Shown: positions 37,058 to 57,714 of the stretch, one piece after another
How the letters are laid out: the number at the start of each line of letters is the position of its first letter
Numbering within the stretch: the stretch's first letter is position 1
Assembly: GCF_000702545.1 (NCBI RefSeq)
Contig: NZ_JNIO01000008.1
Coordinates: 558,001-622,000, forward strand
Direction of reading: 5' to 3'
Length of the DNA stretch: 64,000 nucleotides
Source of the DNA: Selenomonas sp. AB3002
GTDB taxonomy: Bacteria > Bacillota > Negativicutes > Selenomonadales > Selenomonadaceae
Notes under the pieces: model-generated
The model's database searches: none
Told to the model about the DNA's origin: nothing
Seen by the model: the letters and a program-made list of their open reading frames with translations, nothing else
Made by a program: the position numbers and the translations under genes

Positions 37058-37088
37058 TTTATCCATAAGTTATTGAACTGAATATTTC

Positions 37089-37232
37089 CTCATCAAGAGC
37101 GACGGAGGGAAAGGCCCGATGAAGTCGCGGCAACCATTGGAGTTTTCCAAAACGGTGCCAATTCCTTTAGGCATGACCTAGAAGATGAGAGTACGCATAA
37201 AAGGGCTCTCATGTAAGGGAGCCCTTTTCTTA
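37089..37232 (+). ncRNA. SAM-I (S-box) riboswitch with terminator
   Basis: The conserved S-box parts occur in order: CTCATC (P1, 37089-37094), AAGAG...GGAGGGA, GGCCCGATGA, CGGCAACC, GGTGCCAATTCC and GATGAG (37184-37189) closing P1. ATGAGAG (37185-37191) can instead pair with CTCTCAT (37206-37212), the antiterminator, which overlaps the left arm of the terminator stem (37199-37208 with 37219-37228, then TTTTCTT). SAM binding should favour the terminator and lower metK expression. Confidence 0.95.
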
Positions 37233-54146: not shown

Positions 54147-55355
54147 TTGTCTAACGTATTTGACATTTTGAAAGAACGCGGCTTTGTAGCCCAGTGCACC
54201 AATGAGGAGGAACTGAGGAAACTGTTTGATGAGGAGCAGGTTTCTTTTTATATAGGTTTTGATCCCACTGCTGACAGCCTGCATGCAGGTCATTTCATAG
54301 CGCTCATGGCCATGGCTCACATGCAGCGGGCAGGTCATCGTCCCATCTGCCTGGTGGGCGGTGGCACCGGCACCGTGGGTGATCCTTCCGGCCGTACGGA
54401 TATGCGCCAGATGTTGACGGATGAAATCATTGAGCACAACTGTGAATGCTTCAAAAAGCAGATCGCTCGCTTCATCGATTTCTCTGATGGCAAGGCTCTG
54501 ATGGTGAACAACGGCGACTGGCTCAGGAAGCTCAATTATATCGAGCTCCTGCGCGAAGTTGGCGCAGACTTCACTGTAAACCGCATGCTGTCTGCCGAGT
54601 GCTATAAGCAGCGCTGGGAGAAAGGCCTGACCTTCCTGGAATTCAACTACATGATCATGCAGGCCTATGACTTCCTGGAACTGAACCGCCGCTATGGCTG
54701 CAAGCTGGAAATGGGTGGCGATGACCAGTGGTCCAACATCATCGCTGGTGTTGAGCTCTGCCGTCGCAAGCTCAGTACCCCTGTTTATGGTCTCACCAAC
54801 AAGCTGCTGACCAAGAGTGATGGCAAGAAGATGGGCAAGACTGCCGGCGGGGCTCTCTGGCTTGATGCGGAGAAGACTTCTCCCTATGAATTCTATCAGT
54901 ACTGGCGCAACGTGGATGATGCAGATGTGGAGAAATGCCTGTCTCTGCTCACCTTCCTGCCTATGGATGAGGTGCGCCGCTTAGGTGCCATGAAGGATCA
55001 GCAGGCTAATGAAGCCAAGGCTGTATTGGCCTATGAAGTCACAAAGATTGTTCATGGCGAAGAAGAGGCCAGGAAAGCCAAGCAGTCTGCCGAAGCCCTT
55101 TTCGGCGGTGCAGGAAATGTGGCCGATATGCCTACTGTGGCAGCCGAAGCAGGAGACAAGCTGCTTGATGCCCTGGTGGCAGGTGGAGTCTTCGCTTCCA
55201 AAGGGGAAGGCAAGCGCTTGATACAGCAGAATGGCTTGAGCCTCAACGACAGCAAGGTTACGGATATTGACTACGTGCTGCAGGCTGGGGACTTCAATGA
55301 TGGTGCTGCTATTGTAAAGAAGGGCAAGAAGAAGTATTACAAGCTGACTAAATGA
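54147..55355 (+). CDS. tyrS: Tyrosyl-tRNA synthetase
   Basis: 402 residues. Class I signatures: HAGH (in [11 protein letters not shown]) and the KMSKS-like KSDGKKMGK; a C-terminal S4 RNA-binding domain (about 330-402, [16 protein letters not shown]). Start is TTG 54147 with AAGGAG 8 nt upstream. It charges tRNA-Tyr. Only 70 nt separate it from the PBP gene and no T-box leader is present. Confidence 0.95.
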
Positions 55356-55411: not shown

Positions 55412-55463
55412 GTGGGAGGAAAGTGTCTCAGCTTTTTTTCTGGAAAAAAATAAATTAAGGTTG

Positions 55464-55527
55464 TATAATATAATTCGGAAATTTTAAGGATGCACTGAAA
55501 GGCTGGTGAGGAGCATGGATGATCACC
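55464..55527 (+). promoter_or_regulatory. corA promoter and start of a structured leader
   Basis: TATAAT at 55464-55469 is a good -10; a leader of about 190 nt follows. Its first hairpin, GGTGA/TCACC (55505-55509 with 55523-55527), would enclose the ribosome site and start of the short leader ORF. A second, GGCAGACC/GGTCTGCC, spans 55535-55583. No M-box riboswitch consensus is seen. Confidence 0.5.
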
Positions 55528-55610
55528 CTAGTTCGGCAGACCCGAAGCGATGGAACATACATACGAATAAGGGGAGGTCTGCCCTTCCTACACTGGCCGT
55601 GGTCTTTTAG
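55515..55610 (+). CDS. Candidate leader peptide upstream of corA (31 aa)
   Basis: ATG 55515 to TAG 55608-55610 encodes 31 residues beginning MDDHPSSADPKRW, an acidic and proline-bearing N-terminus. GGTGAGG lies just upstream in register with the anti-Shine-Dalgarno. It resembles the layout of Salmonella MgtL (MDPEPTPLPRW...), whose Asp/Pro codons destabilise ribosomes at low Mg2+ to control a Mg2+ transporter. Here a CorA-family gene starts 56 nt after the stop. It lies between two overlapping hairpins. The function is inferred by analogy; translation is not shown. Confidence 0.5.
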   Translation: MDDHPSSADPKRWNIHTNKGRSALPTLAVVF

Positions 55611-55665
55611 CTTTGCGCTGGTGCAGTTTGGGGCGGGTTCTTTCCTATGAGAAAGGAGACAGCCC

Positions 55666-56619
55666 ATGCTGCAAATCTACAAGTCCGCTGAAAGCGGCCC
55701 CTTGCAGGAACTGAGCCTGAAGACTCTGGAGAAGGGAGCCTGGATCAATATCATTGACCCTACACCCTATGAGCTGAAGGTGGTCAGCAACCTGACGGAG
55801 GTTGAGCCGGACTTCCTGCGTTCCGCACTGGATGATGAGGAGCGCTCCCATACGGACGTGGAGGACAATTCCATCATGGTCCTGACCAACGTGCCTGTAT
55901 GCCGTGGCGAGGAAAGCTATGATGCCCTGCCTTTGGCCATCATTGTCACCACGGAGTATATCATTACCGTCTGCCTGGAAGAGACGCCTGTTATGGCGGA
56001 GTTCAACGAGCGTACCGCCAAGCTCTTCCGCACCTATAAGAAGACAAGATTCCTTTTTCAGATACTTTATAAGTCAGCCACCCTTTACTTGCGCTATCTG
56101 CGGCAGATAAGCAAGCTTTCCGATGATATAGAGGTGCAGCTGCGCCACAATATGAGCAACAGGGAAATCCTGCGGCTCCTTGAGCTCCAGAAGGGCCTTA
56201 CTTACTTCAATGCGGCCCTGCGTTCCAATGGCGCTGTCATGGACAAGCTCCTGCGCCTGCGCTCCAATCCCGCCATGAAGCCCATCCTGAAGATGTATGA
56301 AGAAGATGAGGACCTGCTGGAAGATGTCATCATCGAGAACAAGCAGGCCCGGGAAATGGTGGAGATGTACAGCAAGATCCTGGCCCGGCTGGCAGATACC
56401 TTCACTTCCATTATCTCCAACAACCAGAACCGGGTGATGAAATTCCTGGCCGCCATGACCATCATTCTGGCTATCCCTACGGTAGTATCCAGCTTCTTCG
56501 GCATGAATGTGCCGGTGCCCTTTGCGGAAGATGGCAAGGGGTTCATGTATGTCATGGTGATTGCCTTTGGCATTTCCATATCCTCTGCCGTCATACTTTG
56601 GAGGCGGAATATGTTCTGA
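55666..56619 (+). CDS. corA: CorA-family divalent cation transporter
   Basis: 317 residues: a large N-terminal cytoplasmic domain (1-255) and two C-terminal helices, with the signature GMN in SFFGMNVPVPF between them (about 285-287), the selectivity filter of CorA channels. The tail ILWRRNMF is basic. It conducts Mg2+ (or Co2+, Ni2+); the family includes Zn exporters as well, but the intact GMN favours uptake. ATG 55666 follows AGAAAGGAG. Upstream lies a structured leader with a short ORF. Confidence 0.9.
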   Translation: MLQIYKSAESGPLQELSLKTLEKGAWINIIDPTPYELKVVSNLTEVEPDFLRSALDDEERSHTDVEDNSIMVLTNVPVCRGEESYDALPLAIIVTTEYIITVCLEETPVMAEFNERTAKLFRTYKKTRFLFQILYKSATLYLRYLRQISKLSDDIEVQLRHNMSNREILRLLELQKGLTYFNAALRSNGAVMDKLLRLRSNPAMKPILKMYEEDEDLLEDVIIENKQAREMVEMYSKILARLADTFTSIISNNQNRVMKFLAAMTIILAIPTVVSSFFGMNVPVPFAEDGKGFMYVMVIAFGISISSAVILWRRNMF

Positions 56620-56663: not shown

Positions 56664-56784
56664 GGGTATAAAGGCTTTTCTTCGTCTTTGGGTGACAATA
56701 ACTTCAAGCTATGATAAAATGGAACGGACTGAATGAACAACACTTATATAGATGATAGACATGAGATGTATGGGGGATTTCTCT

Positions 56785-57714
56785 ATGGAGTTTCGGCAAC
56801 TGGAGTATTTTTGCACCATCAGTGAGCTGGAAAATTTTACGCGCACGGCTGAGGTGCTGCATGTTTCCCAGCCCTCTGTCACCAAGGCCATCAAGGCTTT
56901 GGAGGCGGAACTGGGGGTGACGCTCATTGATCGCAGCCAGAAGCGGGCCACTCTTACGGAGGAGGGGAAAGTGTTCCTGCTCCATGCTCAGCGCATCATG
57001 CAGGATGCGGAGAGTGCCAGGCGGGATATGCAGAGGTTCCGGCGGGATAAGCATGAGACTCTGCGCTTTGGCATTCCACCTATGGTGGAGGCCTATCTCT
57101 TCCCAGATTTCTTCACCAAGTTCAGGCGGGCCTTTCCCGATGTGACTCTTGATGTGCAGGAGTTTGCCGATTCTGATGAGGTGAAGAACAGGGCAGATCT
57201 GGAGGAACTGGACTTCGGCATCGTGCTGGGAGGCACAGAGGACAATGACCATGCGCTGCCCATCATGGAGGATGCCATGAGCGTCTGCCTGCACCCGGAG
57301 CACCCGCTGGCAGGCAAAAGGATAATCACCTTTGAGGATCTGGCAGGAGAAAAGTTCATCATGCAGCAGCCCCGCACTTACCAGTACCGTGAAGTGTGTG
57401 CCCGCTGCAATGAGGCGGGGTTCGTGCCGGATGTGCTGCTCTGCACTTCCCAGCTCAAGACCATCAAGCAGCTGGTGGCTAATCAGGAGGGTATTTCCAT
57501 CCTGCCGGATTTCGTCACCAGCATGGAGAGCATCTTTGTCAGGCGTCCTCTTTCTCCGGAACTGGAGGTCATGGTATACCTGTATTGGGGACAGCAGCGT
57601 TCCCTGTCAAAGGTGGACAACCGTCTCACTGATTTCATGCGGGAGTACGCTGCCACAGATGAATTCAAGCAAAGGTTTTTGGGAACCCACAAGCCTGAAG
57701 GGAGCAAGGCATAG
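56785..57714 (+). CDS. LysR-family transcriptional regulator
   Basis: 309 residues. The N-terminal winged helix-turn-helix is typical: MEFRQLEYFCTISELENFTRTAEVL, then SQPSVTKAIKALEAELG and LTEEGKVFL. A substrate-binding effector domain (about 90-300) follows. The protein resembles CynR/CysB-type members; the effector and targets are unknown. ATG 56785 follows a GGGGGA site; the frame is open from 56752. The stop TAG directly abuts the smc start, so the two are coupled, which is unusual for a LysR gene. No divergent target gene is adjacent. Confidence 0.85.
   Translation: MEFRQLEYFCTISELENFTRTAEVLHVSQPSVTKAIKALEAELGVTLIDRSQKRATLTEEGKVFLLHAQRIMQDAESARRDMQRFRRDKHETLRFGIPPMVEAYLFPDFFTKFRRAFPDVTLDVQEFADSDEVKNRADLEELDFGIVLGGTEDNDHALPIMEDAMSVCLHPEHPLAGKRIITFEDLAGEKFIMQQPRTYQYREVCARCNEAGFVPDVLLCTSQLKTIKQLVANQEGISILPDFVTSMESIFVRRPLSPELEVMVYLYWGQQRSLSKVDNRLTDFMREYAATDEFKQRFLGTHKPEGSKA

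Follow-up and report, generated by a model that had tools for sequence, protein, structure and literature searches.

An acidic, proline-containing leader ORF conserved ahead of corA in Selenomonas and its relatives: a likely Mg2+-linked leader-peptide attenuator

The corA gene of Selenomonas sp. AB3002 is preceded by a short open reading frame (ORF) whose first codons encode acidic residues and a proline, and comparison of leaders shows that this leader ORF is genuine and linked to genes for Mg2+ transporters. The leader ORF is very likely a translated regulator of corA, its translation being inferred. A full model in which it works as a Mg2+-responsive leader-peptide attenuator is likely, with translation, ribosome destabilisation, folding order and the Mg2+ signal all inferred. 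The parts of the model that computation supports are the conserved frame, the N-terminal coding constraint, the mutually exclusive pairings and the links to Mg2+ transporters and to the M-box riboswitch. The copy found in the window (the whole stretch of 64,000 nucleotides that was analysed) is weak by folding alone, and the case rests on the comparison of leaders.

The corA locus of Selenomonas sp. AB3002

The leader ORF lies on the forward strand at 55515..55610 (MDDHPSSADPKRWNIHTNKGRSALPTLAVVF; 31 aa, ATG at 55515, stop codon at 55608-55610), and in the ORF listing the same frame can also be read from an upstream GTG at 55506. It ends 55 nt before the start of corA (55666..56619, +), which encodes a CorA-type Mg2+ transporter (PF01544, 172.3 bits, E = 1.8e-50). 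A sigma-70-like promoter, TGGAAA-17-TATAAT, was found at 55441..55469 (+); it matches the consensus at 10 of 12 positions, and one such site was found against a mean of 0.4 in shuffled sequences. Given this promoter-like pair, supported by consensus only, the corA leader may plausibly span ~190 nt. A first-pass annotation of the window had described a 31-codon ORF in a ~190-nt leader of a Bacillota corA gene. The ORF held, the leader length is plausible on the same consensus-only grounds, and the assignment to Bacillota is correct, since the best named relatives of the window CorA come from Selenomonas (Selenomonas sp. RGIG9219 and S. ruminantium RUG12626, 97% each). We take the class of this genome to be Negativicutes.

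The N-terminus of the leader ORF, MDDHP (55515..55529, +), contains no more than two acidic residues and a single proline among its first five codons. It is the proposed ribosome-destabilising or pausing stretch, a role inferred from MgtL and MgtQ (PMC11282234, PMC8092293). Four regions of predicted pairing, all on the forward strand, surround or follow it. Region 1 (55500..55518) covers the start of the leader ORF together with its ribosome-binding site and forms a duplex with the distal part of the ORF. Region 2 (55570..55603) is this distal half, whose partner is either region 1 or region 3. Region 3 (55610..55646) supplies the corA anti-SD and forms the 3' arm of the 2:3 helix. Region 4 (55651..55673) contains the corA Shine-Dalgarno sequence (SD) AAAGGAG (55652-55658) and the start codon, and is the 3' arm of the 3:4 helix.

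The gene located 5' of the leader encodes a class I (W/Y) tRNA synthetase (54147-55355) and is followed, as judged by eye, by a hairpin and then T-rich DNA. A LysR-type regulator lies immediately 3' of corA (56752-57714, +), and the window carries a SAM (S box) riboswitch at 37087-37191 (+, 88.7 bits). The possibility that the window leader holds a known Rfam riboswitch was rejected, none being above threshold and the sub-threshold matches looking like chance. The M-box covariance model (RF00380) had no match in the window leader or anywhere else in the host genome (G000), and the M-box is absent from this genome and from 5 congeners. The host genome has a single match to the window CorA query and no match to MgtE; no MgtA-type pump was found over the cut-off, the only matches being five weak ones to P-type ATPases.

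Conservation in the family and the class

A DNA search with the leader gave matches in 46 of the 151 genomes of the family; most of those listed cover the ribosome site and first codons of the leader ORF, and some only the corA start. A corA match was found in 142 of the 151 genomes, 4 genomes with only partial matches were excluded, and 139 leaders from 138 genomes were used (G057 is represented twice). An MD(x)[DHYT]P-type leader ORF precedes corA in 111 of these 139 leaders and in 27 of 29 genera; 109 were detected by pattern and the remaining two (G033 and G129) manually. Their forms (MDDHP, MDxDHP, MDTDYP, MDAGPEP, MDDTPLQP) differ by whole codons. The leader ORF is missing in 24 of the 25 leaders of one genus, g12 (L148 and L139 are examples of this genus), and present in the remaining one. 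In seven leaders of this genus an upstream reading frame ends ~80-155 nt before corA. It is thus possible, though no more than that, that corA has entered an operon there and that the switch has been lost.

In the other families of the class, 40 leaders were selected manually among 182 genomes with a match, a number that counts members of the family. Twenty of the 40 meet a loose acidic/proline rule and the other 20 have no ORF. Nineteen of the 20 ORFs, from 15 families, were kept (that of G174 was excluded); they begin with MDVDHP, MDVDRP, MDADHP, MDIDRP and similar sequences. Class leaders included, the ORF starts 108-199 nt upstream of corA (5-95 percentile) and is 24 to ~41 aa long (5-95 percentile, n = 130). 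Its stop codon falls 30-60 nt ahead of corA in 106 of 130 cases, and the ORF overlaps the corA start in 4 of 130.

A proline occurs at residues 4-7 in 130 of the 130 kept ORFs, and at least two acidic residues at positions 2-5 in 122 of 130. The mark of MgtL/MgtQ-type leaders, acidic residues plus a proline in the first codons, is present in them. Both counts partly reflect selection, largely so for the proline, because the ORFs were picked by pattern or by hand; the tests of frame, codons, pairing and pattern specificity are less affected. Related leaders are not independent either, and correction for the tree was limited to non-overlapping pairs and 36 clusters.

A strict DNA pattern that combines the ribosome site with MDxDxP matched exactly once in 24 genomes of a class set of 200 that includes the family, and its reversed version matched none of these 200 genomes. 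All 24 matches sit ahead of a corA homologue. Two matches among 398 genomes in a search beyond the class were set aside: one is in G020, a member of the family, and the other, in G345, sits within an amidohydrolase-like coding frame. A chance ORF is ruled out by the conservation of frame and codons and by the specificity of the pattern to corA.

Coding constraint on the first half of the leader ORF

Over 22 codons, 122 of the 124 distinct leaders keep frame 0 free of stop codons, compared with 61 for frame +1 and 18 for frame +2. In codons 2-13, changes at the third position number 248, against 142 and 133 at the other two (57 non-overlapping pairs). Codons with a single change comprise 103 synonymous cases for 73.5 expected and 94 nonsynonymous cases for 204.2 expected (57 pairs), and 71 nonsynonymous changes are counted in frame as opposed to 152 and 180 in the shifted frames (59 pairs). 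In codons 14-22, the three positions changed 87, 92 and 87 times, i.e. without codon-position bias, and 28 synonymous changes for 39.6 expected reveal no coding signal (41 pairs in both cases). The comparison of leaders shows that codons 2-13 evolve as protein and that the distal part is constrained as RNA instead.

The same constraint is visible at individual residues. In 34 leaders of the MDDHP...PK type, D2 and D3 vary at the third position only, both Asp codons and nothing else being used, and residue 10 is a proline in 33 of the 34, with all four Pro codons represented. The early proline is often a single one and not part of a run.

Alternative helices in the leader

Structure was assessed in 113-119 of the 124 distinct leaders, those with short spacers or very long ORFs being dropped. 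Taken whole, the window leader has an unremarkable stability (MFE -60.5, z = -0.05), and whole-leader stability was dropped as evidence.

The first-pass annotation had claimed two hairpins in the leader, one of them hiding the ribosome site of the ORF itself. This local GGUGA/UCACC hairpin exists in the window. Nevertheless, the pairing of the leader-ORF SD with the first codons is 0.59, against 0.62 from synonymous codon choice (124 leaders). The hairpin is therefore mostly a by-product of the peptide and was rejected as a conserved element; the exception is the MDDTP subset (0.70 against 0.39 with synonymous codons, 14 leaders), and the MDAGPEP subset gives 0.07 against 0.39 (5 leaders). For the corA SD, too, folding predicts a hairpin (55622-55644 paired with 55651-55673). 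The first-pass annotation would have been refuted by stems kept without the reading frame and had proposed to look at the D/P codons in relatives. The opposite of the refuting case was found: the frame and the D/P codons are kept, D2 and D3 showing nothing but synonymous changes in all 34 MDDHP...PK-type leaders, and the local stem mostly is not.

The leader statistics show that the conserved pairing over the ribosome site of the leader ORF is long-range and involves the distal half of the ORF, a pairing between regions 1 and 2 that was absent from the first-pass annotation. In the window, this 1:2 duplex reaches -21.0 kcal/mol, versus -15.6 in shuffled sequences (p = 0.03). Over 117 leaders its mean is -19.8 kcal/mol versus -12.6 when shuffled, with p ≤ 0.01 in 63 of the 117. 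The duplex goes from -19.7 to -14.6 after synonymous recoding of the distal half and to -15.6 after swapping, and no effect is seen for the equivalent duplex of 57 control ORFs from the window (-13.7 versus -13.8).

The corA anti-SD, evaluated on transcripts ending ahead of the corA SD, is paired to the distal ORF with a mean of 0.79, against 0.40 with shuffled halves (113 leaders). Pairing is 0.79 with the leader's own ORF half and 0.49 with a foreign one, the former being higher in 101 of the 113 leaders. For the window alone, this pairing (0.81 versus 0.44 shuffled) is not distinguished from chance (p = 0.17; swap test, p = 0.12). The corA SD has a mean probability of being paired of 0.73 in 124 corA leaders, compared with 0.58 for 57 window ORFs.

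When a ribosome is placed at codon ~5, the energy of the 2:3 helix is below that of 3:4 in 91 of 119 leaders, versus 13 of 119 for the shuffle means. Without a ribosome, the preference for 1:2 plus 3:4 is no stronger than in shuffles (-11.2 versus -13.0). In unconstrained equilibrium folds the two states are hard to tell apart: the corA SD has an accessibility of 0.34 when translation is aborted and 0.28 when the ORF is translated, with the aborted value higher in 66 of 119 leaders. A difference above 0.3 in favor of the aborted state occurs in 15 of the 119 and the reverse in 4. The equilibrium fold of the window is even opposite to the model (0.23 aborted, 0.33 translated). Equilibrium folding of the ribosome states was set aside as weak support, and the model leans on an inferred order of co-transcriptional folding, because the equilibrium folds and the window copy give weak or contrary results.

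Some support comes from pair substitutions. In the MDDTP set (14 leaders, with Selenomonas and Centipeda as named members; alignment A3, 14 of 14 counted), 3 cells of the 2:3 pairs carry GC or UA in place of CG, and a single pair of the 3:4 helix reads GC in 7 leaders, AU in 6 and GU in 1. In the Anaerovibrio-type MDTDYP set (8 distinct sequences; alignment A4, 9 of 10 MDTDYP/MDNDYP leaders counted), two 2:3 pairs change from GC to AU, in one sequence each, and the 3:4 helix of this set has no covariation. Alignment A2, made up of 18 Selenomonas ruminantium-type leaders, was left uncounted for its ragged gaps. Mutually exclusive helices, one of which hides the ribosome-binding site of a transporter gene, are what an MgtQ-type switch demands, and this is met with two reservations: the equilibrium folds are weak and the 3:4 helix lacks covariation in the MDTDYP set.

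Related leaders in other Bacillota

The phylum sample consisted of 25 loci with flanks and 20 upstream stretches, taken from 90 matching genomes. An SD-preceded acidic/proline ORF was found upstream of corA in 4 of the 25 loci of the first set and in 8 of the 20 of the second. Control windows of the first set contained such an ORF in 1 of 458 cases; the second set had no controls. Two patterns, GGAGGTGA...MDDP and GGAGGTGR...MDxDP, matched 11 and 5 of 338 phylum genomes respectively, i.e. 16 different genomes, and their reversed versions matched none of the 338. The next gene encodes CorA at 14 of these 16 loci and MgtE at 2. PF01544 was confirmed for the CorA of L372. The MgtE downstream of L382 carries PF01769 and PF03448; that of L383 carries PF03448 and PF01769 and is cut by the contig end. 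At these last two loci, both of family f56, an MDGDP-type leader ORF precedes a transporter unrelated to CorA.

At 8 of the 16 pattern loci, in four families, the ORF is preceded on the same strand by an M-box riboswitch. The distance from the aptamer to the ORF start is 58-66 nt at 7 of the 8 and 305 nt in L386. In those seven a T-run separates the aptamer from the ORF, with a hairpin before it (by eye). At L372, L382, L371, L379-L381 and L383 the order is thus M-box, terminator-like hairpin, acidic/proline ORF and then corA or mgtE. An M-box and a leader ORF in one leader look like Mg2+ control in series, an inference drawn from sequence alone. In 40 of the 45 corA upstream regions, which were scanned for both elements, the M-box was found in 10, the ORF in 12 and both in 4.

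The structural evidence beyond the class is thinner. The 1:2 duplex has p ≤ 0.05 in just 4 of 19 leaders; by eye, a 2:3 helix is visible in single folds of L341, L371, L372, L374 and L376 and the SD hairpin in those of L375 and L378. At L339 (~1333-1461 of the reverse-complemented locus), an ORF, MDPSDSSRQSM, stands before corA and is followed by an apparent intrinsic terminator as read from the sequence. It might represent a transcriptional version of the switch, which is no more than a possibility inferred by reading this one sequence.

None of 24 ORF-bearing leaders of the class (that of the window and 23 others) showed an M-box in a search to ~400 nt upstream of corA. The replacement of the ORF by a riboswitch was also considered and rejected: none turned up in any of the 20 ORF-less class leaders (only two tRNAs, in L214) or in 17 of the 28 ORF-less family leaders, in a scan that reached ~400 nt upstream only. 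One class genome has tandem M-box aptamers (G155:C1:483920-484096 and 484228-484399).

Comparison with known systems

Ribosome-based Mg2+ sensing through acidic/proline N-termini has so far been known chiefly from enterobacteria (E. coli, Salmonella relatives). Ribosomes are destabilised by the EPDP sequence of MgtL at low Mg2+ (PMC11282234), and high Mg2+ counteracts ribosome destabilisation (PMC9718836). MgtL, encoded ahead of mgtA in E. coli and Salmonella, resembles the leader ORF: it is short, opens with acidic residues and a proline, and precedes a Mg2+ transporter. Unlike the Selenomonas leader, where the 3' portion is predicted either to mask the corA SD or to release it, MgtL acts through Rho-dependent transcription termination, and it belongs to another phylum and another transporter. 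MgtQ, in the Salmonella mgtC-mgtB intergenic region, shares acidic residues at the start (Asp2/Glu5), the 1:2, 2:3 and 3:4 helices and a translational output (PMC8092293). It differs in having 8 codons and acting within an operon on mgtB, whereas the window ORF has 31 codons and carries the switch in its distal half. By analogy, the translational output makes MgtQ, rather than MgtL, the closest mechanism and the one with the best-matching parts. An mgtQ-like ORF before mgtB in Brucella has been named in the same work (PMC8092293).

CorL is likewise a leader ORF of corA, in Gammaproteobacteria, and the expression of corL and corA is inversely related, but CorL has few acidic or proline residues and works with Rho (PMC11552253). 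The M-box (ykoK, RF00380) controls Mg2+ transporter genes of Bacillota and stands upstream of the ORF at half of the phylum pattern loci; unlike the leader ORF, it is a ligand-binding aptamer, and it was not found in the window leader or in 23 other ORF-bearing leaders. The pe20 system of M. tuberculosis likewise has an M-box with a small ORF downstream that is conserved and carries an invariant proline; in that case, however, the ORF is under the control of the M-box, the peptide is reported to be specific to mycobacteria, and the account consulted mentions neither an acidic start nor destabilisation (PMC12810186). The corA motif is reported to occur only in Gammaproteobacteria and metagenomes (PMC6429828), and an mgtE motif of Thioalkalivibrio has been listed (PMC11109978); a further paper (PMC12054373) is unrelated.

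The open-licence literature searched contained no account of a comparable leader ORF ahead of Bacillota corA or mgtE genes, an absence that is not proof. The suggestion of the first-pass annotation that the arrangement would be new for a Bacillota corA leader meets nothing contrary in that literature, with the same caveat. Its proposal of an MgtL-like acidic/proline control of a Mg2+ transporter is supported by comparison, as this type of N-terminus is tied to two unrelated families of Mg2+ transporters and lies behind M-boxes in some Bacillota; translation, the Mg2+ response and destabilisation are inferred.

Proposed mechanism

The leader ORF would belong to a leader-peptide attenuator of corA with a translational output. 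In the OFF state, the 1:2 and 3:4 helices would form and the corA SD would be hidden; in the ON state, the 2:3 helix would take up the anti-SD and leave the corA SD free. When Mg2+ is ample, ribosomes would get through MDDHP and enter region 2, so that 3:4 can form and corA is turned off. When Mg2+ is low, they would stall or disintegrate on the acidic/proline N-terminus; region 2 would be left free, 2:3 would form first and corA would be translated.

Alternative explanations

The rival that survives best, although unlikely, is an attenuator sensing amino acids or translation factors, in which the D/P codons would respond to charged tRNA-Pro/Asp, EF-P or an ABC-F protein and not to Mg2+. The architecture is the same as that of amino-acid attenuators, EttA acts on the EPDP of MgtL in E. 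coli (PMC11282234), and the proline at residues 4-7 is found in all 130 kept ORFs, largely by selection. Against it, the controlled genes are Mg2+ transporters and not Asp/Pro genes, the ORF follows an M-box at 8 of 16 phylum loci, and there is often one early proline without a run.

An RNA switch that binds Mg2+ directly, the ORF being incidental, is very unlikely. Long alternative helices are conserved and the M-box is a device of this kind for the same genes in other Bacillota. Yet the codon-position bias and frame conservation speak against this hypothesis, and no Rfam aptamer was found in the window leader or in 23 other ORF-bearing leaders of the family and class. Less likely still is translational coupling alone, in which the ORF would bring ribosomes to corA without sensing anything. 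The position of the stop codon (30-60 nt before corA in 106 of 130, with the corA start overlapped in 4 of 130) speaks for it, but it leaves unexplained the N-terminal amino-acid constraint and the coevolving anti-SD. Finally, a small protein acting in trans, which the conserved N-terminus might suggest, is all but excluded by the lack of a coding signal in codons 14-22 and by a length that varies from 24 to ~41 aa.

Implications for Mg2+ homeostasis in Bacillota

The evidence leans, by a modest margin and by inference, towards a broader view in which MD(x)D(x)P leader ORFs have arisen or been kept across Bacillota as Mg2+ sensors ahead of both CorA and MgtE, in some lineages behind an M-box and terminator; in Negativicutes the ORF would be the sole recognisable Mg2+-linked element of the corA leader. 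If so, it would explain how Mg2+ uptake may be controlled in bacteria without M-box or MgtE, such as the Selenomonas studied here. It amounts to a prediction about ribosome stability in a phylum for which the literature searched holds no such measurement. Should it hold across Bacillota for CorA and MgtE, this sensing would be a general strategy and not an enterobacterial curiosity. Where the M-box and the leader peptide stand in series, a single leader would have two sensors of one ion, one based on RNA folding and the other on ribosome stability, and such leaders offer a direct route to asking why cells need two gauges of the same ion.
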